From a virus: a stretch of 26,678 nucleotides of DNA. Below the pieces are notes generated by a model that did no database searches, was not told the DNA's origin, and worked only from the letters and a program-made list of their open reading frames with translations. This document shows positions 1 to 21,000 of the stretch, piece after piece (the stretch's first letter is position 1; every line of letters begins with the position of its first letter). The DNA is taken from positions 1-26,678 of IMG/VR virus record IMGVR_UViG_3300030202_001955; one strand, 5' to 3'. The position numbers were made by a program, and so were the translations under genes.

Positions 1-1791
1 AGCAATTTGTATTTTGAAGACAACGACAACCATGTGTATAATTCTCCTTCACCACAACAGATGGTGTTTTCACATAACATGATGAGGCGCGTTAACCCTG
101 CACTCAAACCTCTCGACCCTTCAACTACGAAAACTTACATGGCTGGCTATCAACACTCCGATAACGAACCAAACCCAAATACGCGTGTAGGTCAAGCCAT
201 CAATCAAACAATGGCTATGCAACCGGACATGCCATTGACACCGGGAGTAATCCAATCCACAGACCCCTCACTCTTCGCTCACTCTTCACATCTTCTTGAT
301 GTCGCGCTTGATGACACACTCATCATCAAAGACGATGGGAAACCACAACCAGTCAAGTTTATGCATCGCATCTTTGATTTAGAAGACTTGAAGCATTTGC
401 GCGGATTTGTTGGTGATTGGGTCATCACTTTGTATCCTCAAGGGGAACATATCATCGCGACAAAGAAAGGTAAAAAGATAACTGCTTACGGTGCTGATGG
501 TGAAATCAAGTTGGATGATGTATTCAATGAAGAAGTCAACAGGGTGCATGACAAAGATTTCGTGGTTCACGCTATACTTCATGACGGGATAATGACTGTC
601 ATTGATTTGTTAAAAACAGCAGACGAAGATACACATAATATGCCAACGAAAGACCGCATTCGTCATCTTCGCGCTCAATACGAATCAAGCGAACATATCA
701 AAATGCCCGAACCAATCAACACCAAGCGTAGTGACGATGAAGGATTATCCGTAGCAGTTGATGGATTGCAAAATGAAAACAACATGGATATTCTTTTGCG
801 CGATGCTAACGCTACATACATGAAAGGTGAACCTCGCCACCCCAAGTGGGTGCTGTTAAGTAAAGAAAAAATGGTTGATGTCATCATACTTTCGCGTGCT
901 GGTAAAAACTACACTATTGGTGTTGGACCACTCATGAACCCCGAACACTATGGTAAGCGCGCACAGCAAGTTGGTGAAGAACACTACATGAATGTAGGAA
1001 GCGCGAAAGGTCCACGCGGTTTCAATGTTGGTGACTTCGCTACGGTTCGATGCACAGGTGTGAGCGCATCTAAGAGCGAACATCCAGTATATCGTATCCG
1101 TTCAGCCAAGTTAACCGACGCTGAACCACTCGCCGCAAACAGTGTTGAAACACTTGCTATATTGGCTGGCGACCACCACATTCCTCAACAAGTCAATATG
1201 AAGAAGGGTAAAATCACAATCTTATTCCCCGCGTTTGACGATGAAGTTATTTGCAAAACGCACAAAGAAGAAGGGTTTTGGTTTGTCGAACCTCAATCTT
1301 CTATATGGGGCAATGACTATCTTGTTAAATTAGCCAACGACCAAGAAGCGTATTGGGAGGCTAAAGCCATTTGGTTGCTAAAGAGAGAAGAGTCCGAAGA
1401 ACCCGAATACGATGAAGTCAAACCCGAACCCCCAGCAGGTCATAGTAAGAAACCAAAGAAGGTTCTTGAAGAGGAGGAGGAGGTTATCAAGCGTGGACTT
1501 GAATTGATGGAGCGCGGATTGGAACATCTTACTAAAGAGAAGATTACCAGCACAGGTGTTCAAGGTCTTGGCATAGGATATGCAAGCCTCGACCACTCAC
1601 CGCGAGGACCTACTGAAAATATCCGCGATGACACCATGCCCGATTTTGACCCTCAAGCGCGAAGAGATGATGAGTTGAAGCCAGCAACTAAGAAGAAAAC
1701 CAAGAAACTGCGGACAAGTCAAGGAGAAACTGCGAGTCTTGAAGACGATGGTGTCATCGCGATTGACAAGGGTTCTATTGATATACCATGA
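1..1791 (+). CDS. 5'-truncated structural-region protein with a degenerate ATP-dependent DNA ligase-like fold
   Basis: The frame is open from the first base, so the true start is upstream; the TTG at base 7 has no ribosome-binding site and is only the first possible start codon in view. Residues are numbered from that TTG. Residues 133-300 follow the order of a ligase nucleotidyltransferase domain: a strand pair near 135-160, DFVVHAILHDG (184-194) followed by TVIDLL where ligases have DGE and FDLL, PTKDRIRHL (213-221) like the PLxxRR segment, MDILLRD (260-266) at motif IV, and HPKWVLLSKEK (278-288) at motif V. Residues 300-375 (YTIGVGP, later GDFATVRC) look like the OB fold. The motif I KxDG lysine is not visible (VGDW instead) and motif III lacks DGE, so ligase activity is unlikely. 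The C-terminal 130 residues are charged, with a glutamate run. The gene lies just before the capsid protease, where a portal normally sits, so it may be the end of a portal fusion or a separate accessory protein. The fold assignment is by eye. Confidence 0.5.
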   Translation, partial: SNLYFEDNDNHVYNSPSPQQMVFSHNMMRRVNPALKPLDPSTTKTYMAGYQHSDNEPNPNTRVGQAINQTMAMQPDMPLTPGVIQSTDPSLFAHSSHLLDVALDDTLIIKDDGKPQPVKFMHRIFDLEDLKHLRGFVGDWVITLYPQGEHIIATKKGKKITAYGADGEIKLDDVFNEEVNRVHDKDFVVHAILHDGIMTVIDLLKTADEDTHNMPTKDRIRHLRAQYESSEHIKMPEPINTKRSDDEGLSVAVDGLQNENNMDILLRDANATYMKGEPRHPKWVLLSKEKMVDVIILSRAGKNYTIGVGPLMNPEHYGKRAQQVGEEHYMNVGSAKGPRGFNVGDFATVRCTGVSASKSEHPVYRIRSAKLTDAEPLAANSVETLAILAGDHHIPQQVNMKKGKITILFPAFDDEVICKTHKEEGFWFVEPQSSIWGNDYLVKLANDQEAYWEAKAIWLLKREESEEPEYDEVKPEPPAGHSKKPKKVLEEEEEVIKRGLELMERGLEHLTKEKITSTGVQGLGIGYASLDHSPRGPTENIRDDTMPDFDPQARRDDELKPATKKKTKKLRTSQGETASLEDDGVIAIDKGSIDIP

Positions 1792-1808: not shown

Positions 1809-3218
1809 ATGGCGATTCTCGCGGCCCCGTCTTCGACCTCTAACCCTGTCATTTTGAAGGGTATTGGTGATGACCTTGTTGTTGCTGGATACGCGTCCGT
1901 TGAAATGGTTGACAAGCAAGGCGACCTTATCACCCGTTCAGCACTAAAAGATGCATTTAGCGGGTTCATGAAAGCAGAAGGATTTCGCAATGTTCAACTC
2001 GCACACTCTAACATTCAAGTAGGAACAGTTATTCCTTCTTACACTGATTCAAGTGGTCGTCTTTGGAAATCCGAAGTTGACGATACAGGAATGTTCGTAG
2101 TCATTAAACTACGCGGGGACATTGAAAAAGCCCGCGAAGTTGCATCCGAAATCCGTAAGGGCAACCTACGGTCTTTCTCAATTGGCGGTCAAGCCTTTGA
2201 GAGAGTCAATAAGAGCGACCAAACACGCGGGGATTACCGCGAAATTCGTCGTATGGAACTCCATGAGGTCACAATTTGCGAGAAAGGTATTAACCCCGAA
2301 GCGCAATTTCGCATCCTCAAGGAAGACACAGGAAATGATGATATGACCAACCCAATGAGCGAACTGCAAAGTGTCCTTGAGAGATTGTCTAAGAAACTTG
2401 ACGATAAGGATAAGGAAGAAGATAAAGAAAAGGGCTTTATGCCCGACATTAAAGACCTTGACGACGACGGCGACAAGAAAGAACCTATGGTGGAAGCACG
2501 AAAGGACAAGAAACCCGCAATGGACGACGAGGACGATGAAGACGAGGACATGATGTATTCCGACGACAAAAAAGAAGACAAGGACGATGATAAAATGGAC
2601 AAAGCAGAAGATATGATTACGACAGACTATTTGACTTGGTTAGAGTCAACCGTGAAAAGCGCAGGGTTTGACCCAAGCGCGGCTCGCGACCACTTTAACA
2701 AAGGCTACGGACCGGGTGAATCCGGCTTCGACCACCGCGGACAAGGTTCCCTTGAAGGTGCTGGCGAAGAAGATTCCGGCAAGCGACCTAAGATGGACAT
2801 GGGAGCCGCACCAAGCGGAAACAAGAATGTCATTAAGGGTGATTACCTAAACGCTTCAAATGTTTCATCCAGCGAAGTTGAAGCCGCTTACGAAGTGTTC
2901 AAGGCCGCGGCACAAGAACAACAGTTCAAGTCCGACCTTAACAACCAATTCACACAAAGGTTCCTAAAAGAACAGAAGCAAGAAGCAGATGCAGTCGCAA
3001 AGGCTAACTTCGATTCTCGCGGACCAATGGTTGAACTACAAAAAGCAGTCATCGCACTCAATGAGCGCATCGACAATGTTTCAACTGTTTCAAGCACAAT
3101 TGCAAAGTCCGCTGACCGAGCAACTGTCACTATTCCCGAAACCGCCGAACTTGCAGACATGTCGTGGGACGATGTTCACCGACTTGCTGGTAAAGCGTTG
3201 ACAGGAGGCGATTATTGA
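1809..3218 (+). CDS. Prohead maturation protease fused to capsid scaffold
   Basis: This 469-residue protein would template procapsid assembly and then digest the scaffold. Residues 15-173 match the HK97/XkdF-like serine prohead protease family: GYASVEMVDKQGD near the start, a candidate catalytic His66 in LAHSN, a candidate nucleophile Ser124 in SFSIGG, and the ELHEVTICEKGINPEAQF block (150-167) that ends these domains (usually E.SLV..PANP). Residues 180-270 are extremely acidic and lysine-rich (DDEDDEDED). Residues about 350-430 form charged helices likely to be coiled coil. The C terminus (SWDDVHRLAGKAL) is a short amphipathic helix of the kind scaffolds use to touch the coat protein. The stop overlaps the capsid gene start as TGATG, so the two are translationally coupled. 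The ATG has only a weak upstream site. Protease and scaffold in one frame is a known arrangement; the catalytic residues are inferred from motif position. Confidence 0.85.
   Translation: MAILAAPSSTSNPVILKGIGDDLVVAGYASVEMVDKQGDLITRSALKDAFSGFMKAEGFRNVQLAHSNIQVGTVIPSYTDSSGRLWKSEVDDTGMFVVIKLRGDIEKAREVASEIRKGNLRSFSIGGQAFERVNKSDQTRGDYREIRRMELHEVTICEKGINPEAQFRILKEDTGNDDMTNPMSELQSVLERLSKKLDDKDKEEDKEKGFMPDIKDLDDDGDKKEPMVEARKDKKPAMDDEDDEDEDMMYSDDKKEDKDDDKMDKAEDMITTDYLTWLESTVKSAGFDPSAARDHFNKGYGPGESGFDHRGQGSLEGAGEEDSGKRPKMDMGAAPSGNKNVIKGDYLNASNVSSSEVEAAYEVFKAAAQEQQFKSDLNNQFTQRFLKEQKQEADAVAKANFDSRGPMVELQKAVIALNERIDNVSTVSSTIAKSADRATVTIPETAELADMSWDDVHRLAGKALTGGDY
2343..3218 (+). other. Candidate internal in-frame start giving free scaffold protein
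   Basis: An ATG at the exact border between protease domain and acidic scaffold begins MTNPMSELQSVLERL. AGGA lies 9 bases upstream, in the same register as other starts in this window. Use of this start would give a 291-residue scaffold without the protease. Nested protease and scaffold genes of this kind are known (lambda C and Nu3). Use of the start here is inference. Confidence 0.4.
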
Positions 3219-4366
3219 TGGCAAGAAATTATGTAAGAACAGTGCAAGACATGGAGCGATACTATTACGGTGGCGCATCCCAAACCGGCTACACCTACGG
3301 TGCAGGTGACATTCTCAAGGCAGACGCGCCTTTGATGTCAACCACCGCTGGAACATACCAAGCGATTTACGGACGAAAAGTATGGTCACAGTTGAACCAA
3401 GAGTTCAACGCGTTTTCTATCCTTCCTAAGAAACCGTGGGAAAGAAGTGGATGGCGTATCCTTACTGGTCGCGCTGACTTTACCAAAGGTGGCGGAATTG
3501 CAGAAAACGGAACTCTACCGGACACAAGCCGACCGGAGTTCCTACATGTTGCCGCAAAGCCAAAGACCGTCGCGCACACTTTCGACCTATCGGAAGTTAG
3601 CATGTTCTTGTCCGACAAGGACGACGGATTGGGCGATGTTCGCCAAGTTCTAAAGGAAGAGATGGGTAAGCACCACGCTGAACATATCAACCGAATGATG
3701 CTTGAAGATGTTGACACACCAGTTGGCAACGACTTTGAATCCCTTGACCGTCTTACCTCCGACCCGGACAAGATGACCACAGGAACAGGCCATGTAAGCG
3801 CAACTACTGACCACGACATTTACTCTATTACCCGCGACGGAAGTGCAGATTTCCACAGCGCAGAAGTTGATGTTGCGGCTTCAAGTTCAACTAACAGAAA
3901 CCTTTCTTTGAATCAACTTGATGGATTGTTCCAGCAACTATGGACTCGCGGTGGTAATCCGAAGGTTATGCTAACTGGATATGATACTCTAATGAGAGTT
4001 CAACAGTTGCTACAATCCCAACAAAGATTCATGGACAGCAAGCGTGTCACTCCTACCTACAACGGTGTGAAAGGTGTTCCCGGTCTTGAGGCTGGTTTCA
4101 TCGTCGCAACCTACAACGGTGTCCCAATGATTCCAACAAAGGATATGCCACAAGATGGAGCAGGTTCTCTATCTCGTATGTATTATCTTGACACGGATTA
4201 CCTGTGGTTCCAAACCGCAATCCCGACACAATACTATGAATCCGGTATCGAAACCGGCGACCCATTCGCGATTAACCGTCTTGGACAAGAAGGACTCTAT
4301 CGAACTATGGGTGAGATGTGGTGTTCTTTCTTTGGTGCAAGTGGCTCTATTCGTGACCTACAATGA
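3218..4366 (+). CDS. Major capsid protein, HK97 fold
   Basis: The 382-residue product is the shell subunit. The ATG overlaps the previous stop by one base, and AGGAGG lies 9 bases upstream; an in-frame TTG one codon earlier is less likely. Features typical of the family, in order: a flexible N-terminal arm; residues 50-72 with GRKVWSQLNQEFNAFSILP; a glycine-rich E-loop-like hairpin at about 78-105 (FTKGGGIAENGTLPD); a strand (KTVAHTFDLSEVSMFL); a long spine-like helix at about 138-164; an A-domain segment with NPKVMLTGYDTLMRVQQLL (247-265) and VPMIPTKDMP; and the late GLYRTMGEMWC strand. The length is normal for a mature HK97 coat without a delta domain, fitting a separate scaffold encoded just upstream. 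The highly ordered codon use and strong ribosome site suit a very abundant protein. Family assignment is confident from pattern and context; no covalent crosslink residues were assigned. Confidence 0.88.
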   Translation: MARNYVRTVQDMERYYYGGASQTGYTYGAGDILKADAPLMSTTAGTYQAIYGRKVWSQLNQEFNAFSILPKKPWERSGWRILTGRADFTKGGGIAENGTLPDTSRPEFLHVAAKPKTVAHTFDLSEVSMFLSDKDDGLGDVRQVLKEEMGKHHAEHINRMMLEDVDTPVGNDFESLDRLTSDPDKMTTGTGHVSATTDHDIYSITRDGSADFHSAEVDVAASSSTNRNLSLNQLDGLFQQLWTRGGNPKVMLTGYDTLMRVQQLLQSQQRFMDSKRVTPTYNGVKGVPGLEAGFIVATYNGVPMIPTKDMPQDGAGSLSRMYYLDTDYLWFQTAIPTQYYESGIETGDPFAINRLGQEGLYRTMGEMWCSFFGASGSIRDLQ

Positions 4367-5635: not shown

Positions 5636-5801
5636 GTCCGATACCACAGTGTTTGAGTTCACGCCCGAACAAGCGTGTGACACAGCAGGTGCAACTGGCG
5701 TTCAATTGGTGCTTGATGCTCACACTTCCGGCAAGACCGTCGAAGGCGTGACATCATATACCATGCAAGGTAATTTGTATGTTGTAGTTGTCACCGCTTG
5801 A
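5634..5801 (+). CDS. Very small hypothetical protein (55 residues)
   Basis: A TTG-started frame preceded by AAGGTGAT at standard spacing. The product begins MSDTTVFEFTPEQACDTAG and ends in a beta-type run NLYVVVVTA. It lies exactly between the preceding TAA and the next ribosome site, with no other coding possibility, and its stop is joined to the next site as TGAAGGTGAT. It has no recognised family, signal peptide or membrane segment. The perfect fit of start, site and stop makes it a real gene despite its size. Confidence 0.6.
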   Translation: MSDTTVFEFTPEQACDTAGATGVQLVLDAHTSGKTVEGVTSYTMQGNLYVVVVTA

Positions 5802-5811
5802 AGGTGATACT

Positions 5812-6078
5812 ATGGACTTACACGAACTGCAACGGCTTGAAAAACAAGGCTGGCGTAAAGCCGAAGAGTCAATGGTCAAGACCGATGAGCGCGACAAGTT
5901 GAAAGGTGTTGTTAAGCGTCAAAACATGAAGACGCGCAATATCCGAGATATTGTCAACATCGGTGCTGGCACTCGCTGTAAGTTCTGTGGCATGTTGCAT
6001 TTCTGTTATCTTGAACGATGCGGAGCGTGTAAGAAGCCAATGGACTACAATCTCGCTAAAACCGAAGAGGTGATTTGA
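5812..6078 (+). CDS. Small zinc-ribbon protein
   Basis: An 88-residue protein starting at ATG 3 bases after AAGGTGAT; an upstream in-frame GTG at 5788 lies inside the previous gene and has no site. Residues 1-50 are strongly charged and helical (KAEESMVKTDERDKLKGVV). Residues 56-73 form a zinc knuckle pair, Cys56-x2-Cys59 and Cys70-x2-Cys73, with an extra Cys65 and His63 between them. This is the classic two-knuckle zinc ribbon. Such proteins bind nucleic acid or act as assembly factors; the position among head genes suggests a structural or morphogenetic role rather than transcription control, but either is possible. The stop overlaps the next ATG by one base (TGATG). Confidence 0.68.
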   Translation: MDLHELQRLEKQGWRKAEESMVKTDERDKLKGVVKRQNMKTRNIRDIVNIGAGTRCKFCGMLHFCYLERCGACKKPMDYNLAKTEEVI

Positions 6079-6422: not shown

Positions 6423-8003
6423 ATGCCTACGGTTTTTCAAACAGGTGAACGCGAAGGACGACCTTTATTCCCCGATAGGCTTTACTACACATCTGCACAG
6501 AAAGTAGCAGACATTCTTCAAATACCATTCCCCGACCCTGTTTATTTGGCCGCAGAAGATGGTGGCACAGATGTTGACATTTCCCCCGCAGACTACCGAC
6601 TGGTTGGTTTTGAAGTAGGTGATAAAATTGAAATCACCAGCGATACTGAAATGGGCGAAGAGCGAACTATTACAGCAATTACTCGCGCTTCCGGCAATGT
6701 GCGTCTTTCTTTTACGGGGGTTTTGACGGGTGATTATACCACAGCGGATAACGCGCAAGTGCAGAATCTTCAATCATTCACCAACGGTAAGCGAAAGGGT
6801 GTGACTAAAGCGCAAGTTGAAACTCTCATCTTGCGAACACAAGACAAGATTGACAACCTAACAAACAACGCGTGGCGACCTATGTTGCAGACCGCAGAAT
6901 ACATCAACTTTGACACATACAAACCATACCGACGCAGATACTATACCGATTATGTTGGGACTACACCATTGCTATTCCGCAATGTGCAACACATTCTTCG
7001 ACTTGAGATATGGCAAGGTGCTGATTATCGCGAGATAGCCGCGGCTGAAATACGATTGAAGATTGAAGACTTTACTCAAATAACGGCTGATACTGACAAA
7101 GTGTTCCTATGTCCCGGTGGGGGTGGTGTTGCAACACTCACAGCAGGTGATGGCTCATCGAAGTTCCGCGCGCAGTTTGATAATGTAAGCACAGCGCAAC
7201 AACTCGCAGACCTCATCAACATGGATGCGCGCAAAGCCAAGAGTGCAACACCGTTCAGTCCATCTTTTGAGTTTGAAGATGTCACCGAGGCTGATGGGAC
7301 GATTACAGCCAATGTTCATCATGAGTTCATGGCTTCCGCGAACGCTGATTACGGTGGCGGTCAAATTAAAATTACTTCTATGCGTCGTGGTGAAGCAGGT
7401 GAGAACGCAACCTACGCTTGCACATCATCCGGTGTCACATTTACAGGGGCAACTGACACAAGTAAAACGGTGTCATCATCCACAGCCACCACTATCGTTC
7501 TCAACGATGTCACAGGTCTTGCACCATACGGCATCATCAGTATTGGTGCAACACACGGATACTACACCAGCATCACAGGAACTACACTCAACGGTGTAGT
7601 TGACCTCGTAGGTGACATTAGTGCGGCGGCAACCAACGGTGCAACACTTCTTCAAAAGAAATTCAAGATTGATTATGTCGGAACAACCACAGGTGACGAG
7701 GCTCGTCTTCGCGATTGGTGGGCTGACTACGATATGGGTATCATTTACTTCAACAACTCATACCCTTATTTCTCATGGAACGCAGTCAAGGCATCGTATG
7801 TCTATGGTGAGCGATATGTTGAGAAAGCGATTGAAGATATATGCACCAAATTGGTCGCGATGGACTTGATACTGTCCGACGACCGAAGCGTGCTACTACC
7901 CGAAGGAACACAGAATGTGGACTTGGGTAGCAAGTATCAACTATTCAAAGCGCAAGTGGCTGAAACACTACCGCGCTACACAGAAGTAATGACGGTGTTG
8001 TGA
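6423..8003 (+). CDS. Head-tail connector (adaptor) protein with inserted beta modules
   Basis: This 526-residue protein probably joins the portal to the tail. The signature is split. Residues 126-155 (VTKAQVETLILRTQDKID, then NNAWRPM) have the helix pattern of gp6-like connectors. The last 80 residues, with YGERYVEKAIEDICTKLVAM, give the paired C-terminal helices. Between them sits a large beta-rich insert. Residues 240-345 contain TAQQLADLI, GEAGENATY and FTGATD, a module widespread in tail and neck proteins. Residues 355-410 (DVTGLAPYGIISIG, YYTSITG, LNGVVDL) form a second small beta module. Residues 55-115 resemble a further beta barrel (VGDKIEITSD). It is about four times longer than a plain connector, so it may add a collar or neck ring. 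The next gene follows after 4 bases. Role from motif pattern and position; moderate confidence. Confidence 0.62.
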   Translation: MPTVFQTGEREGRPLFPDRLYYTSAQKVADILQIPFPDPVYLAAEDGGTDVDISPADYRLVGFEVGDKIEITSDTEMGEERTITAITRASGNVRLSFTGVLTGDYTTADNAQVQNLQSFTNGKRKGVTKAQVETLILRTQDKIDNLTNNAWRPMLQTAEYINFDTYKPYRRRYYTDYVGTTPLLFRNVQHILRLEIWQGADYREIAAAEIRLKIEDFTQITADTDKVFLCPGGGGVATLTAGDGSSKFRAQFDNVSTAQQLADLINMDARKAKSATPFSPSFEFEDVTEADGTITANVHHEFMASANADYGGGQIKITSMRRGEAGENATYACTSSGVTFTGATDTSKTVSSSTATTIVLNDVTGLAPYGIISIGATHGYYTSITGTTLNGVVDLVGDISAAATNGATLLQKKFKIDYVGTTTGDEARLRDWWADYDMGIIYFNNSYPYFSWNAVKASYVYGERYVEKAIEDICTKLVAMDLILSDDRSVLLPEGTQNVDLGSKYQLFKAQVAETLPRYTEVMTVL

Positions 8004-8007
8004 TAAT

Positions 8008-8391
8008 ATGAACCCAATGAATGAAGCATGGATATTTTTGAAGGCGAACCCCGATATGACTGACTCCGAAGGACGAACCGTTCCTCCCGCGGTAATGAAC
8101 TACGCTCAATATGCACGCGCTTTACAAGATAGTATAGATTACAACCTTCAAGAAGAATACCCCGATGCAATTGTAGCCGATTCCACTTACGATGATAACG
8201 CATCACGATTCCGTCAAAATCTAAAAACAAGTCCTTCATTTAGGCAAGAAAAAGTTGGCGGAGAAACTATGCAAGAACATCACGACTTCGCTCGCGACCG
8301 AGCAAAGCGCGACACAAGCATGTATATGAATCAAGACGAAGGACATAATCAGTTTGGAAAAGACCCACATGTCCAAAGAATGCCCCGGTGA
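8008..8391 (+). CDS. Small charged protein with the MNPM-x2-AW-xx-LK N-terminal tag (second copy)
   Basis: A 127-residue hydrophilic protein whose first residues MNPMNEAWIFLKANPDM repeat the tag of the gene before the connector, although the rest of the two proteins does not align by eye. The codons differ at silent positions, so the likeness is at protein level. The body is rich in Asp, Gln, Asn and Arg (NYAQYARALQDSIDYNLQ) and ends with a basic, His-containing region. No membrane or catalytic signal is visible. It lies between the connector and another small gene. Its ribosome site is weak (TGTGATAATATG), implying coupling to termination of the connector four bases upstream. Confidence 0.68.
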   Translation: MNPMNEAWIFLKANPDMTDSEGRTVPPAVMNYAQYARALQDSIDYNLQEEYPDAIVADSTYDDNASRFRQNLKTSPSFRQEKVGGETMQEHHDFARDRAKRDTSMYMNQDEGHNQFGKDPHVQRMPR

Positions 8392-8395
8392 TAAT

Positions 8396-8665
8396 ATGAA
8401 AGAAGCAATCAAGAAGGCTATCGCTAAGGCTATGATAGAGCCTGTCATGAAAGCGCGTGAGAATAGCGTATTCAGTGATGAAGGGTATGTTTTCCTTGAT
8501 GCGTGTGCCTCTACCTATGACGCATCAGTTAGTGACGGAAAGTTGATTGACGCGAACGGAAAGGTGATGGATAAATCAAGCCCCGAATACAAAGCAATAG
8601 TTAACATGGCTAAGATACAGGCTCGCGCACAATCAAGTGTGGGGAGTGATTTGATTGGCCCTTGA
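8396..8665 (+). CDS. Small hypothetical neck-region protein
   Basis: The 89-residue product starts at ATG 3 bases after CGGTGAT, which overlaps the previous stop; an in-frame TTG at 8354 has no site. It opens with a strongly amphipathic, basic helix (MKEAIKKAIAKAMIEPVMKA) followed by a short alpha/beta body. It is not recognised. Its last 11 bases overlap the next gene. Given its place between connector and tail genes, it could be a head-completion or neck protein. Confidence 0.6.
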   Translation: MKEAIKKAIAKAMIEPVMKARENSVFSDEGYVFLDACASTYDASVSDGKLIDANGKVMDKSSPEYKAIVNMAKIQARAQSSVGSDLIGP

Positions 8666-9095
8666 ATCTGTTGAACTCATCAAAGGTATTCTCACCGATG
8701 GGTGGAATCGCGGCAATACAGACCAGCGAACACCTATCATTGAAGACATCACTACGGTTGAGGCTGGTCGCGGAAAGCGTCTTGACCTCACTAACAAAGA
8801 CGCTATACTGCTGTATGAAACTGTCCACAACGAAGAACAGCCGGAAGTATTCTATGATTTTGTCCACACGCGAATCAATGTCACCGTTGATGCGCGAACA
8901 ATGAGTGGCAGAAAACATCTCATGAAAATTGAAGATGAAGTTCGGCGCATTATTCACAGCAAAAGAAAGGGTGACGGTGCTAATTTTGACCGATTACTCT
9001 ATAAGATGAGAACTGACCTTTCGGATAGAACGAAGAGGCTACATCGCATGACCTTCCAAGTCGAAATAGTGATATTCTCGGAACTCATCGCGTAG
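8655..9095 (+). CDS. Putative tail terminator or neck protein
   Basis: The 146-residue product starts with TTG, 4 bases after GGAGTGAT, overlapping the previous gene. The pattern is an N-terminal helix (ELIKGILTDGW), a strand block with YDFVHTRINVTVDART, a central helix (HLMKIEDEVRRIIHSKR), and a final long strand HRMTFQVEIVIF. This alpha/beta order, together with the position directly before the tail-tube gene, fits the tail-terminator/neck family (lambda gpU and HK97 gp10-like), which caps the finished tail. No diagnostic residue is visible, so the assignment leans on gene order. Confidence 0.5.
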   Translation: MALESVELIKGILTDGWNRGNTDQRTPIIEDITTVEAGRGKRLDLTNKDAILLYETVHNEEQPEVFYDFVHTRINVTVDARTMSGRKHLMKIEDEVRRIIHSKRKGDGANFDRLLYKMRTDLSDRTKRLHRMTFQVEIVIFSELIA

Positions 9096-9115
9096 GACAA
9101 GGCGGAGCAGATAAT

Positions 9116-11029
9116 ATGGCATCAACAGTGTATAAAGGCGACTTATCCGAAGTGACATTCGGCAAAGAGTGTGGAATAGCGTTAGCGTATGACGGCTTCG
9201 GTGGTCTTCGTTTCGCGACAAATGCCGCTGGCACTTTAATCACTTTCACAGGCGCAAGCGAAGGTTTCTTTGACGGCTCATCTAAACTTCGCTACCCTGT
9301 TGGGATGCTTGTTGGTTCACAACTTCGCGTCATTGGTGGTGGCAACTTCACCCTTGATGATAACGCTACCAAAGGCCATGTTTATACAATTGTTGCAAAC
9401 AGTGGTGATACAATCACAGTTTCCCCACCAATGAAAGAGGTAAGCACTACATCGGTATCCGGTGATGAACTACTCATTGATACCGTAGGAACACCAACAA
9501 TTGACACAGGTATGACATTTCACGCATCCGCTTCTTCTTCGGATGAATCAGTTCTTACTGACCAATTCATCGGACTTGCCGCAACTGTCGCGCTACCGGA
9601 AACAAAAGTCGAAGTGCGCCGTTCACACATTGTAGGTGTAGGCCGTGATGTTGTCATTCAAGAACCTCAACGCTTCTCTAACGAAGGTGGTTCTCTTGAA
9701 TCAATGATGAACAGCGCGCGCTGGTTGTATTACGCGCTTGGTCGCGAAGTCATTGATATTCCCGCCGCACTCATGACCGACCCAAGTGGACACGGAAAAC
9801 TTGACATTTCAAATGGTGACTCTTACATTGGCTACACAGGCACACTATCCAACCTCGCCGCTGGTGACTATGTTATTGTTCAAGATAGCACAGCAACAGA
9901 TTTTCCTAAAGACACACCTGCCGCCGCATCAAAAGAATGGGGTGCTGACGGTGTTGGTATAGATATGGAGAATACCGAGCGAAACGAAATCCGTCAAGTG
10001 CTTTACATTGATACAACTACGCGACGAATCCATGTTGAAGAACCATTTCACTTTAATCACCTTGCGAGTGTATATTCATTGAGGGCTTTGAAATACGATA
10101 CAGGCTCAAGCAACGGTTCACCGGATTTCGTCACTACCGCCGCCAACTTCGGAACAATCACCAACCGCCAATCACGACTTCTGTTCTCCGGTCCTACGCT
10201 CCCGTCTTTTGCGATTGAGTCCAGTATCCGAACAACCAATAGTGGCTCATTCAACGCCAGCGCAGAAGGTATAGGTGCGCCCGGTTCAGCAAACGACAAC
10301 AAGCAACTTACGCGCGTTTGGAAAGGATGCAAAGTGAAAGACTTCTCTATCGCGGCAGACGCAGATGCAGAAGTCAAACTATCAATCAATTTTGATGCGC
10401 TTTACTGTTATACCGACACAGGCCGTCTTGAGAACAGCAACAAAGGTGATAGATACACCGCACACCGCATGTTTGAGAACACTGCTAACAGCGTCATTAA
10501 CCGTAAGAAGGCCGGTATCGCACCAAACACCGAGAAACCATTCTTCTTTTACAATGGTCAAATCAGTTCATTCGGAATCAACATCGCGCAAGTCACCAAC
10601 TTTTCACTAAGTGGTAATAACAACGCAGAAGCAATTTACACTATTCGTGGCAACAGTCAAGCAGAATCTCGCAACACTGCTGGTGATTCTCTTGAGCAAA
10701 TACCATTCGGTGGCTCACGCAATGCTAACCTCATGATTGAGAAGGCTATGGAATACGAGTTGAGTATGAGCGTCATTGCATCCGACCCGTTGATTTGGCA
10801 TGAGTTCCGAACCAACAGAACACACGCGTTCACTGAACCAATCACACTCACACTGACAAAGGCTGGTTCCGGTGCTAACCGCGAAGAGGTTATCATTGTC
10901 ATTGACGACTACATTATCACGGAAGCACCGCTTCCTATACCCGAAGATAAGGGTGTTATCAAGAGTGAGTTGAAGATTATGCCGAAGCATGTTCGCGTAA
11001 TTTCACACGACGCATTCTTACACATGTGA
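9116..11029 (+). CDS. Major tail tube protein, enlarged with extra beta domains
   Basis: This 637-residue protein is likely the subunit of the tail tube. It starts at ATG 8 bases after GGAG. The C-terminal third carries the pattern typical of tube proteins: WKGCKVKDFSIAADADAEVK from about residue 404, then SSFGINIAQVTNFSLSGNNN from about 483, then NLMIEKAMEYELSMSVIAS. These are long beta strands broken by a short helix. Residues 60-150 and 225-310 are extra beta modules (VGSQLRVIGGG and NLAAGDYVIVQD patterns) not found in minimal tube proteins of 150-300 residues, so the surface of the tail may be decorated. The chaperone and tape-measure genes downstream support this role. The stop is joined to the next ribosome site (TGAGGTGA). 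Confidence 0.68.
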   Translation: MASTVYKGDLSEVTFGKECGIALAYDGFGGLRFATNAAGTLITFTGASEGFFDGSSKLRYPVGMLVGSQLRVIGGGNFTLDDNATKGHVYTIVANSGDTITVSPPMKEVSTTSVSGDELLIDTVGTPTIDTGMTFHASASSSDESVLTDQFIGLAATVALPETKVEVRRSHIVGVGRDVVIQEPQRFSNEGGSLESMMNSARWLYYALGREVIDIPAALMTDPSGHGKLDISNGDSYIGYTGTLSNLAAGDYVIVQDSTATDFPKDTPAAASKEWGADGVGIDMENTERNEIRQVLYIDTTTRRIHVEEPFHFNHLASVYSLRALKYDTGSSNGSPDFVTTAANFGTITNRQSRLLFSGPTLPSFAIESSIRTTNSGSFNASAEGIGAPGSANDNKQLTRVWKGCKVKDFSIAADADAEVKLSINFDALYCYTDTGRLENSNKGDRYTAHRMFENTANSVINRKKAGIAPNTEKPFFFYNGQISSFGINIAQVTNFSLSGNNNAEAIYTIRGNSQAESRNTAGDSLEQIPFGGSRNANLMIEKAMEYELSMSVIASDPLIWHEFRTNRTHAFTEPITLTLTKAGSGANREEVIIVIDDYIITEAPLPIPEDKGVIKSELKIMPKHVRVISHDAFLHM

Positions 11030-11039
11030 GGTGAACAAG

Positions 11040-11183
11040 ATGAATCCGTTTAGAGAAAGTTGGGGAATGCTACTGAAAAAAAATATGTGCAAAGAAGATG
11101 ACTGTAAAGGTTGTCGAGGTTGTAAGACCTGCGCTGAATGCAAAGAAAAAGGCTCAACTTGTGAAAAGATGGGGTGCGCTTGA
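11040..11183 (+). CDS. Cys-ladder mini-protein with the MNP-tag
   Basis: A 47-residue peptide starting at ATG, 5 bases after AGGTGA. Its opening MNPFRESWGMLLK is a third version of the tag in two other small genes of this window. The rest has eight cysteines; five of them (22, 25, 28, 31, 34) are spaced exactly three residues apart, giving four overlapping CxxC pairs. Such spacing could hold zinc or an iron-sulfur cluster. The stop overlaps the next ATG (TGATG), which supports reality. No family is recognised. It sits between the tail-tube and SAP-domain genes, an unusual place for a metal-binding peptide. Confidence 0.68.
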   Translation: MNPFRESWGMLLKKNMCKEDDCKGCRGCKTCAECKEKGSTCEKMGCA

Positions 11184-11620
11184 TGAAGCGCGACATGCAT
11201 ATTGGTGGTGAACGACCGCTTCACATTCGTGCTGTTGAGAAAGACACTTTCATCGCTGAACCCGTTGAAGAAGTGTTCAACCCCGAAGCCGCAAAAACAG
11301 ACGGTAATCCATTTCCCGAAGAACAACAAGAAGAAGTTGTTGAAACCACACCTGTTGGAGAAGAAGGTCCAACTGATTACGAATCCTTAACCGTTGAAGA
11401 ACTGAAAGCACTCTTAAGAGCGCGCGGTCTTGATGTTAAAGGTAAAAAGGCGGAACTCGTTGCTCGCCTAATTGAAGCGGATACCCCCTCGGAAGAGGCA
11501 GTTGAAGTGGATGAAGTCGTTCCTTCGCAAGAAGCCGCGACAAGCGATGATGGAGTAAGTGAGAACAATGCCGAAAATAGCAGACCCGATGAGCCTCTTG
11601 GTGAACAGCCAAGCAGTTGA
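11183..11620 (+). CDS. Acidic protein with a SAP domain
   Basis: The 145-residue product starts at ATG overlapping the preceding stop; an earlier in-frame GTG at 11174 is less likely. Residues 66-100 (YESLTVEELKALLRARGLD then VKGKKAELVARLIEAD) form a clear SAP motif: two helices joined by a bend with the conserved Gly and Lys. SAP domains usually bind DNA. The flanks are very acidic (EEQQEEVVETTP and SEEAVEVDEVVP) and look disordered. It precedes the chaperone pair, and its last 53 bases overlap the first chaperone. Its place between tail tube and chaperone genes is unexpected for a DNA binder; it may act as a protein-protein adaptor. Confidence 0.7.
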   Translation: MKRDMHIGGERPLHIRAVEKDTFIAEPVEEVFNPEAAKTDGNPFPEEQQEEVVETTPVGEEGPTDYESLTVEELKALLRARGLDVKGKKAELVARLIEADTPSEEAVEVDEVVPSQEAATSDDGVSENNAENSRPDEPLGEQPSS

Positions 11621-12199: not shown

Positions 12200-13912
12200 G
12201 TGGCAGATGATTTAGACGCAGTGGCAAAACAAGTCGAAGACTTGACAGTCGCGCTTGAACAATTCGGTGTCTTCAATCTTAACGCATCAAAGAAAATGGG
12301 TATCTTTGAAAAACAACAATCGAAGATTGCAACTGCTATCAAGAAATCTCCTATTGTTGGTATGGTTCAAACACTTGGTGGATACGCGAAAGCGATTGGT
12401 AATGTCACTAAAATCACAGGACAAAATGTGACTATGAGCGCGGAACAAAAAAAGAAACATCGCGAAGGTATGACAGTGATGCAGAAATTAGTCGCTGGCA
12501 CTATCGCACATGGTGTAGCGCAGAAAATGAGCAACAAGATGTTGAAGATTGCAAACAACAGATTCACGCGTTTGATGACAACAGCGTTCTCGCTGGTCAG
12601 TATTTTCCTTATTGTTGGTTTTGCTTTAGCCGCTTTGTCAATAGCGTTTGATGGGGCGAATAGCCCTATTCTCAAATTGACCGAAGACTTAGGACCACTC
12701 CATGACGCGATGCAAGGGTTGGTGCTTGTCATATCGGGAGAAGGTGATGAAGGTGGTGCGGCGGCGGCATTTGATGTGTTAGCCGCATCAATGCTTGGTG
12801 CATCAGTCGCCGCGCTTGCGCTTGGTGGCACAGTGGGTGTGGTAGTAGGGTTCTTGATTTTAGCCGCCGGAGCAGGTCGTATGTTTTACAATGAGTTTGG
12901 TAATTTGTATGCATCTATCGGCGTTGCTATTGGTATTTTTATGACTTTGATTGGTTCAGTTATGATGTTGAAAACTGTTTTTGCCGCGTTGAAAGCGGGA
13001 AGTCTTATCGCGGTAAAAGGCACAGTAGGTGCAGTGGTAGCAGGTATTGGTATGGTCATTGCTGGTATTGCCGGTCTTGTGGCGTTTGCGATGGGTGCTG
13101 GTGAAGGTATCAAGGGTGTTCTTCTTGGTATTATTAGCGCGTTGCTCGTATTTGTTGGATTATTTATAGCAGGTGTCGCTATAATCCCCGCGGCTATCAT
13201 CGCTTTTGTTGCTCTTTTAGTTGCAAGTATTATTCGTTATTGGGACGAGATAAAAACATTCTTGGGTGACGCTTTAGATTGGTTGATTGGTGTCGGCGGT
13301 TTAATTTTCTATGGTTTCATCTCCGGTCTTACTCTCTTAGTTGGCACTATCATCGGTTTGATAACAGGTGCTGTTGGTCTTGTTGTCGGTGCTATTACTG
13401 GTGTAATAAATGCTATATTCCAAGTTGGTAAATCATTCTATACTGATGTTATCAAAGGTGGAGGCTCACTCATCAAATGGTTCATCAGCATACCCAGCAC
13501 AATCAAGAAAGGGTTTGTTGACGGGTTCAAGAGCATCTTTAATGGTGTCACAGGCATTTACAACGGTTTTGCGAAGAAAATGAAATTCAAAATACCTAAG
13601 TGGGTTCCGGTTGTCGGTGGTAAGAATTTCAAACTACCCACTATTCCAAAGTTAGCAAAGGGTGGTGTTGTAAATGACCCAACGCTTGCTATGATTGGTG
13701 AGGATGGACCGGAGGCTGTTATCCCACTTAACCGCAAGAATAACCCTAACGGTATTGGTATAGGTGGTGGTGGTGTCACAGTCAACATCAATGTTGGTGG
13801 TGTCACAGACAGGACCGATAAGCGCGCATTAGCGAAAGAAATTGGTGATTTGATACGCGCTGAAATGACTCGCGGCGGTCGCTCTCACGGAAACAGGAGG
13901 TCGGGTGTATGA
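12200..13912 (+). CDS. Tape measure protein
   Basis: The 570-residue product sets tail length and is probably ejected into the host with the DNA. It starts at GTG 4 bases after AGGTGA. The first 120 residues are charged helices. Residues 129-150 and about 190-405 hold at least five long hydrophobic, Gly and Ala rich segments, likely to act as membrane-spanning helices on ejection. The C-terminal motif LAKGGVVNDPTLAMIGEDGP (485-504) with EAVIPL is the hallmark of tape measures. Gly-rich VNINVGG follows. At 1.5 angstrom per residue it would specify a tail of about 85 nm. Its last bases overlap the next gene by ATGA. No lysozyme or peptidase domain is visible. Confidence 0.88.
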   Translation: MADDLDAVAKQVEDLTVALEQFGVFNLNASKKMGIFEKQQSKIATAIKKSPIVGMVQTLGGYAKAIGNVTKITGQNVTMSAEQKKKHREGMTVMQKLVAGTIAHGVAQKMSNKMLKIANNRFTRLMTTAFSLVSIFLIVGFALAALSIAFDGANSPILKLTEDLGPLHDAMQGLVLVISGEGDEGGAAAAFDVLAASMLGASVAALALGGTVGVVVGFLILAAGAGRMFYNEFGNLYASIGVAIGIFMTLIGSVMMLKTVFAALKAGSLIAVKGTVGAVVAGIGMVIAGIAGLVAFAMGAGEGIKGVLLGIISALLVFVGLFIAGVAIIPAAIIAFVALLVASIIRYWDEIKTFLGDALDWLIGVGGLIFYGFISGLTLLVGTIIGLITGAVGLVVGAITGVINAIFQVGKSFYTDVIKGGGSLIKWFISIPSTIKKGFVDGFKSIFNGVTGIYNGFAKKMKFKIPKWVPVVGGKNFKLPTIPKLAKGGVVNDPTLAMIGEDGPEAVIPLNRKNNPNGIGIGGGGVTVNINVGGVTDRTDKRALAKEIGDLIRAEMTRGGRSHGNRRSGV

Positions 13913-15086: not shown

Positions 15087-18000
15087 GTGGCGGTTATTGG
15101 TTTATCGAGTCACGCGCTATTCTTTAATGGTGTAAGTGATAGCGTTGTTTGCCCTCAAGGTGATTTTACCAAAACTGGCATCAAACGCGTTCTTAATGGT
15201 GTTGAAGCGCGCTCATCAGCACCTATACTACAAGACGATGACGGACATCGTTTCGCTAACCCCAACAATCAATCGTTGAATAATTTCACAGTAGAAGCAT
15301 GGGTATCACCGGACTGCGGTGGAGTTATCGCCAGTAAAGCAGGTTTGTTTGAACTTCGTATGGGGGACATCAATGGACCGGATGCCGCTTCATTCAAAGT
15401 TGAGTTCTCTAACGGTGTGACCGCGATAGCATCAAGCGCAAATAGTTATCCAACAGCGGCGGCATCATTCATCAGCAACAATGTTGGCTACAACACAGGA
15501 CAGCGCGAACTGTATCACATCTCCGGCGAGTTCAACGGAGAGCAGGTCAAACTTTATGTCAACGGAGAATTGATGGCTTCGCATAAAATGAACAAAAAAT
15601 ACTCATGCAATATCAATGACCAAGACTTATTCATTGGTGGTAAAGGTGGTGAGTATCGCGGATACATAGAGTCACTCCATTGGAAAGCGGATGTGTCAAC
15701 TATGGAATCGCGCGCAAAGCCGTTTATGCTATCAACAAGCACTCTTGGTCTTTGGAGATTTGAAGAGCCTGTTGATGTTGACAGCACTGTGTTTAAAATC
15801 ACATCTAATGTAGCGGCAGGTGCAACATCAATCACTATTGGGGCAACTCAATGTCAATCGCTTTACGAACTGGTGAGTGGTAAAAGCGACACACTGGCAA
15901 CAAACTACACACTTGATAGTCTTGGTAATTACCGAGTTGCTAATGCGGCACATAGCGGTGGTGCGCAAGTTATCAGCGTAGCCCATACGCCGTTCAATCT
16001 TCTCATAAACCCAACAGCGACAGATATTCTCACAGGTATCCCTAACGGTTCTCCGCCGGAAAGAGTTCGACTCAAAGCAATCAACACCAACGGAACTATC
16101 ACAGTTGACAGCATCCACCTCGACTTCGGTGTATCACTTGATACAGGTTCGCGCGGTGTATTACACGCACGAACAGCATTTGACACAAGCAACAATTTTG
16201 CAAATGATTCAACAATGGTTCTTGTTCGTTCGGACATACTCATCGACGGAGAAAGCGGGAAGCCGTATCAAAGAGTTGGAACAGGTAGTCAAGCGATTGA
16301 CAGAACAGGAGCGATGGTTATTGATGAGAGTGCCAATGAGTTTCACGGCTTCTTGTATTCGCGCTCACTTGCTGTCAATACGAATAACTTTGCACCTTCT
16401 TCTTGGAGTATTGCGGAGCGTTTCAAAACAGGACACACAGGTCGTCATCATTTTACTCAATTAGAAGGACACCCTTACCTGCGTTTATTACCTCCAATCC
16501 ACGAACAAGAATTAACAAGAACGATTGATGGAATAGCAGATGACGCGCTAATCACATTTGCTGGGAGTTATCTTGGACTCAAAGATTCTTTACCAATTAA
16601 CAGCAAAGTTGCTGTCACGCATACAGCGTTCAACGCTCGTATTGTTGATGTAAAAACAAGTGCGACAACTAACGGTGTTGTTCTCAACGGTATGCATGGA
16701 ATAGAAAATAACCGCAACGGTGTAATCGCAATATCAGTTGATGACATCGAACCATTCTTGTTGAAAGGTGGAGGTATTGGTGTATCATCAACCACTGATT
16801 CTCAATACACAAAACATCTTACACCCGAAACAGAATCACGCGTTGCTATTCTTGAAGTGTCGGGATTGACCGCTGGTTATGTTGAGATTCATTACAACGC
16901 AGTTGACCTTACAGGTGGTAAAATGGGTTTAAGCAACCCTGCATTGCTCATCACCAAAACCGTTCCCGATGGTGGTTGCTTTCTTAATTCAAAGCGCGTA
17001 GCCGAACATATTGCTGATGCCGTTGGTGCTGGCGCGACAATACACTCACCGGGCGGTGTTGTGATTGCCTCATCGAAAGATGTTGGAAGTGCGCAAGTAG
17101 CGATGAAACCTCATCACCTTGTTGGTGATAACACAGGTGGTATTGAATACGACGAAGAATTAGATGAAAGCCTCATACCTTCAAATCACACACCTCTTAG
17201 CGCAGGTGATGAAGCACGCGCGCCACCTCAAGGTGTTGGCACAAAACTTCACCCATCGGTATATCACAAAATACATATTCAACCCAATCAAAGAAGTCAA
17301 AGCGACCCACCTGTTGGAGAAGCCCCAACTCACTATCAAGAATCTGTTCAATTCGCATCACAGAAAGGTGGCGCGTTTGAGATGTTTGACATTATTGACA
17401 ATGATAAAAAAGGAGATTCATACATTTTTATCGTTCAACCATCTAAACGCGAACGCACAATGCAATTGTCAAGAGTCACACCTGTATCAATAGATGCTAA
17501 CGATTCAACTTATTTCACTATTGAATATGTTCAATCTAATGTGCGCGTCACTTCTATGGAAGTTAATGATTCGGGAATGGGTCGTTTTCTTGTCATGGAG
17601 GGTCAAGGGTTGATGAGTGATGTCGCAGACCAAACTGTATCATACTCCGGTGATGGTAGTCGCGATTCTCACATTGTTAAAGAGATACAACCGGGTGCGC
17701 CTGTCGTATCAGTCACTCTTGGTGGCGCAGGTCAAGGTGCAATCAACACAAAACCAACTTGGGACCCAGCCGCTTTATCGCGAATTGGATGGAATACGCG
17801 ACATGATTGCACAACAATGGTGCAATCATTCACAAGCACCACTCTCACTGTTGTTCCTTTGAATAATAATGGCACTTATCTTGACAGTTGGGGGACATAT
17901 TGTTTTCCGGCAACAGGCCGTATCTATTTAGAAAACGGCGCATACGCTGAATATGCATCAAAAAGTGGTAGCGGATTTACATTCGCAGGTGGAGCAACAC

Positions 18001-21000
18001 ATCTTGGAACAAGTAAGTATGTCTTAGCCAACGGGAGAGATACTACTTCATTCGCGCAATGGGCAATTGAAAACTCTATAACCGCGGGAATAAAAATACT
18101 ACTTGACCCACTTTTCGATTCGTTATCTATTTGCGGTGATGGAACTACAATAAATGACAGGTTGTTTCAGTCGATTGGTTCTGTAAAACATGATTACCAA
18201 CTCGGAACACAGTATGCAAGCACACGCGCGCTTGCTGAAATACCACTCTTCCCTCAACAGTTCTTTGAAGACCGCGATGCTGGTCTTTTCCCCGGACCGG
18301 ATAACAGCATGAAGTTGCATCTTGATGCAACAATGACTGCACAAGCATGGAACCCTTCGCCTGTTGGTCGTCGCGCACCAAACTTCCCCGCAACAGACTA
18401 CGAAGCATTCGGTTATTATCAATATGCGAAAAGCAACAATTTACCTATCCGAAGCATTGTCACTGAAATCACAAGAAACGCTTCGACCAACACAATGAAT
18501 CTTAATACAAATGTTATACCCGATTCAAAATTTGACTCTTTCGGTGATGTATTAGGTGTTAGCACACAAAGAACGCGAAGAATTGTATTAGGTAATGGTG
18601 AATGGGCTTATTATGAAAAAACCGGAGTTGGGGTATGCCAACTTACTCTAAGCAATTTGGCTTCTCATTCGAGTGAAAATTTCTTTTCAACTGTTCGTGT
18701 TGGTTCACAAGTTATAGTTGGTGAATTACCCGACAACTCTAATTTTCCACTTGCTGGTGATGTTGGTTATGGTTCATCCGCTCAAGAATATCGTCGTCCG
18801 TTTTACTATGACCGCGGTAGCGTAATGACGCAGGGTGGTAATCTTGACTATGGATTGCGTCAATATGTTAGCGCAGTCGAGTTCAAGGCTGGTCCAACAT
18901 CAAACCCTCATTTACCGCGCATTAAAAGTAAAAACGCGGTGCTGGATTTGATACTCTATACGCCGTTATCAAGTCCACAGGAATTTACTTTTGAGGGTGA
19001 TTTACCAAAAGGTAAGTTATCAACAAATTATCATTTCGCGGGCATCAATGAAGTCACAGGAAGAAAATACAGAATCAATTACAATTCTTCAACTAATGCA
19101 AATTTGATTACTGTTGAAGCACACCCAATACTTGACTCAACAGCACCCGCTCTTTCGCAAGGAGATAAACTCACACTGCTTGGTGTTTATTCTGTTGCCC
19201 CGACAACTATGCCTTTGAAGATTGAAGACGGTATTGCGAACGCAACATGGAATAATCCGTATTGCCCCGGTGGACTGCGCTATGGTGATACTGTTTGGAT
19301 GAATATGCACTACACCAACCCTCACGCCATAGAAGGAATGTTCGCAAAATCGCGCGGTGTGTTAAACGAATACGAAGTATGGCGAGGCTTCAACGGTGGT
19401 AAGGGTGAGTTAGGAACAGAAGCGCGAGATACATTACCAATCGAGAACTTTCTCATAGGTGATACCTGTCTTGAAACTGCTCGCAACTTTGTTCAACATG
19501 TGAACAAGACCATCGAACTTAACTGGATTGAACTTGGTCACGAAACAGACCCAACACAAGCCGATTACAGTGCGCCACCTATCGTTGCATACCTCGACCC
19601 TTATCTTAGCACAGAACAACACGCGCGAGTCTTACTCTATGATGTAGCACATGACCGTGAGTTCATCGCGTTTCATGACCTACACATGCAAGTGCAAACA
19701 AACCCAACCACTCCAACAATCAACGGGCTTGATGTAGCGGCTGGTTTTAGAACACAAAACAAAGATAAGCAACTTATCACTAAATATAATTCTCAAACAC
19801 TCAATAGCGTATCATACACTTATGAAGATGGTCATGGTAAGTCACAGTTTGTTGAAGGTGCATACGCGCATCGCGCTTGGTATTTGATGGACCAGTCGTT
19901 TATGGTCACTACTGGTAGTGCGGCATTGCAACATTACAATCGCAAAGAACGAAACACTCCACATTATGTCAAATTCGGTCATGAAACAACACAGTATGGT
20001 CAAGGTCGCGTATCTCAATCAACGGTTGATATGGACATAGCCGCTTTGCGCCACGCTGAAACTATACCTTACAATGAATCCAATGATGTTCAACAAAATA
20101 GCCTAACAGCACCTCAATTTACAGCAACATTTTTTGACACACCCGAAGGAACTCGCGTCATATCGGCATTCCTTTGTTTGAAAGGTAAGCGCGCAAATGC
20201 TAACAATCTTTCATCTCATTACGAAAATAGATTGCAACACTTACCGCATTGGAGTGAAATGGACTTTATTCGTCGCTTGACGATAGATATGGGTGAAATA
20301 GGAATCAAAGAAGGTGTGACTGATATTGAAGCCGCCGCAAAAGAAGTTGTTCGTCTTATCAATCAAGGTGGTGCATTCAATGGTCGTAGCAGTCAACGAC
20401 GACCATCCGACCAATACGCCGGAGAAGGAGAAAGGTTCGACATCAATCGTCGTAGTATTTCGACAGGTGGCACAGATACAGAAGAACCAACAGACGCTAC
20501 CGCGGTTCATCAACACGCTGACTTTGCTGTGACTGGTTCAACTCACGACCCTGCACCGTTTTGGATGGATAACGCGTTCACATCATTTGACCGTGGTTCA
20601 CACATGGGTTATCTTCGCGCACATTTAGGTCGCGTAGTTGAAGACGCTAACGGAAACGAAGGATACAGTATCGTCATACATAGCACAGTTCCGGGTGCAA
20701 CAGGTCGTAATTTCTGCGTTTGGCTTGACAACAGCAAATCACAAGCCGAATACAAACCGCAATTCCTTATCGGTCACGGTGGTCGTTTCCGTAATTTTTA
20801 CTGCGCGCCGCCGGAAATGGCCGGAGAAAACATGCACCCTGCGCCAATGCCAATTGACAAAAACGGTAAGCCATTTGCACCAATTACAACATTAAGAGAG
20901 TATGTTGCTTTAGATGAAGCCTCGGATGAGTTCTTTACAAATCAACATCTTGGGTTTGATAAAAATTACAACACGACGATGGAGGGAGAAGAAAGTCCTA

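Follow-up and report, generated by a model that had tools for sequence, protein, structure and literature searches.

Pseudo-enzymes made from nucleotidyltransferases are already known. The m3G cap-binding domain of snurportin-1 (PF21974) is a non-catalytic relative of the capping-enzyme fold, in which a dead nucleotidyltransferase fold binds nucleotide. ATP-dependent DNA ligases are built of a nucleotidyltransferase core and an OB fold, in this order; an N-terminal DNA-binding domain (PF04675) occurs in larger ligases only, and minimal ligases lack it. A catalytically dead yeast DNA ligase IV (dnl4-K466A) was found to bind DNA breaks and to support a repair mode without catalysis of its own (PMC3694833). 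It is a precedent for an architectural role of a ligase, but it is an engineered mutant of an active enzyme and not a naturally fixed pseudo-ligase (PMC3694833).

Among described viruses, the magroviruses (Magrovirales: Aoguangviridae, Apasviridae; PMC10768690, PMC12999244, PMC10160649) fit those analysed here in genome size, in the presence of PolB (family B DNA polymerase) and thermosome, and in a Druskaviridae-related major capsid protein (MCP). Magrovirus papers list an ATP-dependent DNA ligase (PMC10160649, PMC10768690, PMC12999244) and place it in the replication machinery, whereas the sole ligase homologue detected in our material is a domain without catalytic residues, encoded in the head gene block. 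Such a dead DNA ligase, fixed among the capsid genes of a large group of viruses, appears to be unreported in the literature searched; that search, whose scope excluded most subscription journals and the original magrovirus description, returned nothing relevant on an inactive ligase as a virion part. The haloviruses HVTV-1 and HCTV-1 offer a second comparison, as their gp115 and gp109, giant proteins annotated as zeta toxin, are likewise large, lie shortly upstream of the prohead protease and are accompanied by a related MCP. Profile comparison of our giant protein with halovirus gp112-115 and gp119, HCTV-1 gp107 and gp109, and vir519 gene 22 gave no significant match. In two halovirus loci, giants are found between portal and protease at L036:2146-5292 and 6539-10480, and at L038:1646-4786 and 7744-11376. 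One has a HExxH-like stretch (SHEMGHAF) and one is annotated zeta toxin, and by eye the last domain of HVTV-1 gp115 resembles an ADP-ribosyltransferase.

The DNA analysed, called the window below, is positions 1 to 26,678 of the virus record IMGVR_UViG_3300030202_001955, a 26.7-kb fragment. The record itself ends at the window start, so that the first ORF, of interest here, is truncated at its 5′ end (Table 1). Relatives 94-96% identical to it extend upstream to a GTG, probably the start codon of the giant genes, placed after a purine-rich stretch. The closest complete copies have 1,976-1,990 aa, the closest of all (L007) about 1,990 aa, and judged from these relatives the window protein lacks about 1,400 N-terminal residues. 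The family ranges from about 1,793 to 2,400 aa. It is carried by more than 240 IMG/VR loci, recovered by an initial search and three further scans; some contigs were fetched more than once with shifted offsets, which makes the number of distinct contigs lower than that of loci, and all residue counts given below refer to 122 distinct domain sequences. Among bacterial and archaeal genome contigs no relative could be confirmed, and GenBank phage records gave no real match. Comparison of the N-terminal 1,400 aa with Pfam, PHROGs and PDB yielded single weak matches, which we took as chance, and no toxin domain. Two members, L026 and L064, have 127 additional aa bearing CxxC and HH motifs; this insertion follows the residue equivalent to L006 1857 and separates the OB part from the acidic tail.

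Table 1. Features of the window discussed in the text (residue numbers are those of the truncated ORF).
Feature	Position	Strand	Remarks
Giant protein, C-terminal 596 aa	1..1791	+	ORF open at 5′ end, cut by window start
Nucleotidyltransferase (adenylation) core	310..873	+	residues about 104-291; model residues 19-206 on ligases; PF01068 in relatives
Motif I position, Y-P-Q-G-E-H	433..450	+	residues 145-150; K-x-D-G-x-R in ligases; lysine replaced by Y145
Motif III position, H-A-I	568..576	+	residues 190-192; D-G/A-I or V in relatives; DGE glutamate lost
Degenerate motifs IV and V, DILLRDANATYMKGEPRHPKWVLLS	787..861	+	residues 263-287
OB-fold part, motif VI degenerate	871..1179	+	residues about 291-393; model to residue 307 aligned with 2cfm, 4eq5 and 3gde
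Extra beta/alpha segment after OB	1180..1398	+	residues about 394-466; kept in family; no match found
Acidic and basic low-complexity C-terminal tail	1399..1791	+	conserved helix; GLGIDY...SPRGPT...PDFDP motif
Prohead protease (S78), acidic scaffold-like C-terminal half	1809..3218	+	directly downstream of giant gene
Major capsid protein	3215..4366	+	phrog_24667, 4.4e-59; 34% identical to halovirus HCTV-1 MCP

Gene order around the giant gene was found to be fixed. The S78 prohead protease follows it directly in 234 of the 234 loci with room for it, at a median gap of 18 nt, the MCP lies downstream in 182 of 182, and a portal gene upstream in 187 of 188 (contigs fetched more than once are counted here too). 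The head block reads portal, three small genes, giant, protease, MCP. A preliminary description of the window, made from the truncated ORF, had put the protein in the slot of the portal and had suggested that it might be fused to one. Neither idea is supported: the portal is a separate gene of 615 aa (phrog_18178, E 2.7e-74), its end lying about 1.3 kb upstream of the giant ORF, and sequence searches with the N-terminal 1,400 aa gave no match to a portal family. The fusion was therefore not adopted as the reading. Directly upstream of the portal in locus L028, at L028:3-797, a homing-endonuclease-like sequence, LDADGYITITKR (phrog_5046, HNH endonuclease, 3.6e-11), probably lies inside or beside the terminase gene. 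Within the window, the head block also holds a 96-aa ORF with a zinc-ribbon-like CxxC...CxxC pattern (5788-6078, + strand). Further downstream, the tape measure protein (12200-13912, + strand) has just 570 aa, which is short for a tailed virus of such size, while very large tail-like proteins surround it. One uninterrupted reading frame of more than 3,864 aa (15087-26678, + strand) runs off the window end; its product is likely a giant tail or adhesin protein, with an N-terminal part that looks LamG-type by eye.

Taken alone, the window ORF sequence matched no PHROG, no Pfam family above cut-off and no PDB sequence to a meaningful degree. Its relatives were more telling. The DNA ligase family PF01068 (DNA_ligase_A_M) matched 17 of the 32 members of set A2 and all 11 of set A5, the best match (7.9e-7, locus L100) being above the curated cut-off. 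Searched against all PDB sequences, the A5 profile gave eight matches, all eight to DNA ligases, with that of Thermococcus sibiricus (4eq5) in front at 1.8e-6. Comparison of set A6 with the phage SB3 ligase by hhalign was significant (2.8e-5, probability 74%), and with the HGTV-1 ligase it was not. An AlphaFold model of window residues 86-470, computed with 80 diverse sequences in the alignment, reached a pLDDT of 83.2 and a pTM of 0.70, model residues 1-21 remaining below pLDDT 50; an earlier run, covering all 596 aa and using 17 close relatives, gave a pLDDT of 45.5 and was not interpreted. The model matches archaeal ATP-dependent ligases, with nucleotidyltransferase core and OB fold both present. 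Foldseek found 4eq5 at 3.3e-13, and VIA superposed the model on the Pyrococcus furiosus DNA ligase 2cfm with a Z of 20.2 and an rmsd of 3.8 over 269 residues spanning both parts. Among the structure matches listed, 50 of 50 were ligases; the segment after the OB fold (about residues 394-470) was barely tested by these matches. Outside the ligases, PF21974 gave a weak match, to 2 of the 11 A5 members (1.3e-5, just under the curated cut-off) and to 8 of the 32 A2 members, also below cut-off.

The domain and the ATP-dependent ligases (2cfm, 4eq5, human LIG3) also share motif neighbourhoods, PMxx...W..x.YDGxR, LNxFDIL and ..LxxRxxSTYxxG.R..KW, and the ligase motif order first noticed by eye (I, III, IIIa, IV, V, OB) is borne out by sequence profiles and predicted fold, an unrelated fold being what the prediction did not give. 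We conclude that an ATP-dependent DNA ligase core, nucleotidyltransferase with OB, was the ancestor of the C-terminal domain. Unlike these ligases, it is part of a 2,000-aa protein in a virion gene block. A sequence search of 15 genomes gave no match to PF04675.

The ligase fold is kept, but not the residues of catalysis. At the position of the motif I lysine (KxDG), the 122 distinct sequences have W (76), Y (30), I (10) or F (6), and none has K, while the G that follows in the motif is invariant. The glutamate of motif III is I in 98 sequences and V in 24 (I192 in the window), that of motif IV is replaced variably (D, N, V, I, Q, T, R, C), and at the two lysine positions of motif V stand L, V, M or I (L285 in the window) and R, S, T or Q (S287). 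The absence of the KxDG lysine and of the DGE of motif III, reported for the window at the outset, thus extends to the whole family, and alignment uncovered an intact motif I in no relative. A quick tree groups the motif I variants by clade. It contains open forks, raised long-branch warnings and was used solely to ask whether the lysine was absent from every clade. As no clade retains it, its loss is most simply ancestral. With lysines lost from motifs I and V and glutamates from motifs III and IV, the domain, judged by its residues, would be unable to perform covalent-lysine chemistry.

This domain is nevertheless by far the best conserved part of the giant protein across the family, with an identity of at least 97% at 43 of 385 positions. 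Many of these fall in the old motif IV-V region (LLRD..sTYM.GE.RHPKW), where R267, D268, T272, Y273, M274, G276, E277, R279, H280, P281 and W283 are at least 97% conserved. Pairwise dN/dS (Nei-Gojobori) of the domain was 0.034-0.084 in comparisons with the window; dS was saturated in the more distant pairs, and the weight rests on the two nearest comparisons (L002, L007). For full-length pairs, values of 0.041-0.062 were obtained for the domain, versus 0.137-0.149 for the N-terminal 1,380 codons. The domain is under strong purifying selection, and is presumably maintained by something other than ligation.

A working ligase encoded elsewhere was looked for in 15 virus records of 77-118 kb that contain relatives. 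All 15 encode PolB and thermosome, which have been described together in viruses of Marine Group II archaea (PMC5332604, PMC10768690). The window MCP is related to those of HCTV-1 and HVTV-1 (34%). The host viruses fit magrovirus-type tailed viruses of marine archaea (Poseidoniales), an assignment read from gene content which, the window contig being a 26.7-kb fragment, rests for the window virus on these 15 relatives. PF01068 matched in 13 of the 15 records, every time inside the giant ORF, and neither NAD ligase (PF01653) nor RNA ligase (PF09414) was found in them. Because PF01068 missed the SB3 ligase used as a control, the search was repeated with phrog_114. This family recovered both control ligases (1.8e-72 and 5.1e-59) and no ligase in the 15 records. 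Used as a tblastn query in 19 genomes, the HGTV-1 ligase had no match, a result that carries no weight because a positive control was missing. As the records may be incomplete, this absence holds for the sequence present. The dead domain may be the source of the ATP-dependent DNA ligase reported for magroviruses.

The reading that we favour, with a probability of about 0.6, is that the giant head-module protein contains a ligase module without catalytic function, which binds either nucleic acid or a component of the head. That a pseudo-ligase was recruited as a structural or packaging protein, as proposed in the preliminary description, is to this extent a reasonable inference, because gene order is fixed and the domain is constrained without its catalytic residues; the portal fusion attached to it is not supported. 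The assignment of the giant to virion or head assembly derives from gene order, and the halovirus giants of the same interval lend it a weak analogy, weak since no homology to them is detectable. The ligase-derived domain would be kept as a binding module for nucleic acid or its end, for nucleotide or for a head protein, and would recruit the N-terminal 1,400 residues, which diverge fast, to the inside or the surface of the head as it is assembled. We favour a virion-internal or procapsid protein with a ligase fold that would hold the packaged DNA or dock it to the portal/protease complex. The aromatic residue in place of the lysine, together with its conserved surroundings, fits non-covalent binding of nucleotide or nucleic acid, for which snurportin-1 offers a precedent and a weak profile match. 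The core is slightly acidic (28 K+R against 36 D+E over residues 101-300) and PF04675 was undetected, which would speak against a plain DNA clamp. Attachment to portal, protease or capsid would be just as plausible.

Could the domain still be an enzyme? Its pocket might perform a different reaction, or the nucleophile might have moved, either to the lysine that precedes the motif I position in one large clade (K-W-Y-D-G) or to an invariant residue such as H122 (MHRIFD). We consider these variants, taken jointly, very unlikely. A K does stand one residue before the canonical position in 66 of the 122 sequences, and both the rest of motif I (YDGxR) and the LLRD-TYM-GE-RHPKW block show strong conservation. 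The other 56 sequences, that of the window included, have L, H, S, A, I, D or R instead, so that a shifted nucleophile cannot be a family feature; within the K-bearing clade itself, it keeps a small residual chance. In the clades retaining Y-D-G-x-R, W or F rather than K aligns on the catalytic lysine of 4eq5, and comparison with the SB3 ligase likewise puts W/F there. Moreover, an adjacent residue within a strand would face the opposite side, and the motif III and IV glutamates and the motif V lysines are lost as well. The chance that a functional ligase was misread through sequencing or alignment error, or that the gene is simply decaying, is negligible: the same loss is seen in more than 240 loci (some contigs repeated) from many metagenomes, frames are open over 1.8-2.4 kaa, and dN/dS of the domain is below 0.1. 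We regard that explanation as already refuted.

Two further proposals keep the domain non-catalytic and differ in what it does. It could be a pseudo-enzyme that senses nucleotide or cap, its emptied pocket binding a nucleotide or a nucleic-acid end non-covalently and so gating assembly or ejection. The PF21974 matches, the nearly constant replacement of the lysine by an aromatic residue and the conserved pocket motifs go in this direction, but the profile scores stay below the curated cut-off, the conserved residues could be structural, and snurportin-1, unlike the giant, is a cellular nuclear import adaptor. We think it unlikely that sensing is the function. Some phages deliver giant proteins into the host at infection. 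The giant could similarly be packaged and co-injected as an effector, with the ligase fold acting as a decoy or a DNA-end protector. Its size, its position before the protease and the zeta toxin annotation of the halovirus proteins in the same interval would agree with this, but the giant has no homology to those proteins and no toxin domain was found in it, which makes delivery to the host quite improbable in our eyes.

A ligase-fold protein without catalytic lysine beside the capsid genes, first suspected from a single truncated ORF, is thus supported by profiles, predicted fold and more than 240 loci (some contigs repeated). The non-catalytic head-module reading, if true, would provide an example of a replication enzyme turned into a virion part, and it would give a handle on the role of the giant protein between portal and protease in Poseidoniales viruses. 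A likely annotation error would also be corrected, as magroviruses have been described with a nearly self-sufficient replisome that includes an ATP-dependent DNA ligase. More tentatively, and somewhat short of an even chance, the ligase of a whole order of abundant marine archaeal viruses may have become an essential non-catalytic part of head assembly or genome packaging, borne in every member by a giant protein, these viruses having no working ligase of their own and the reported replisome ligase being this pseudo-enzyme of the virion module. A dead domain as the only detectable ligase homologue, as in the 15 large genomes, would mean that these viruses depend on the ligase of their host.
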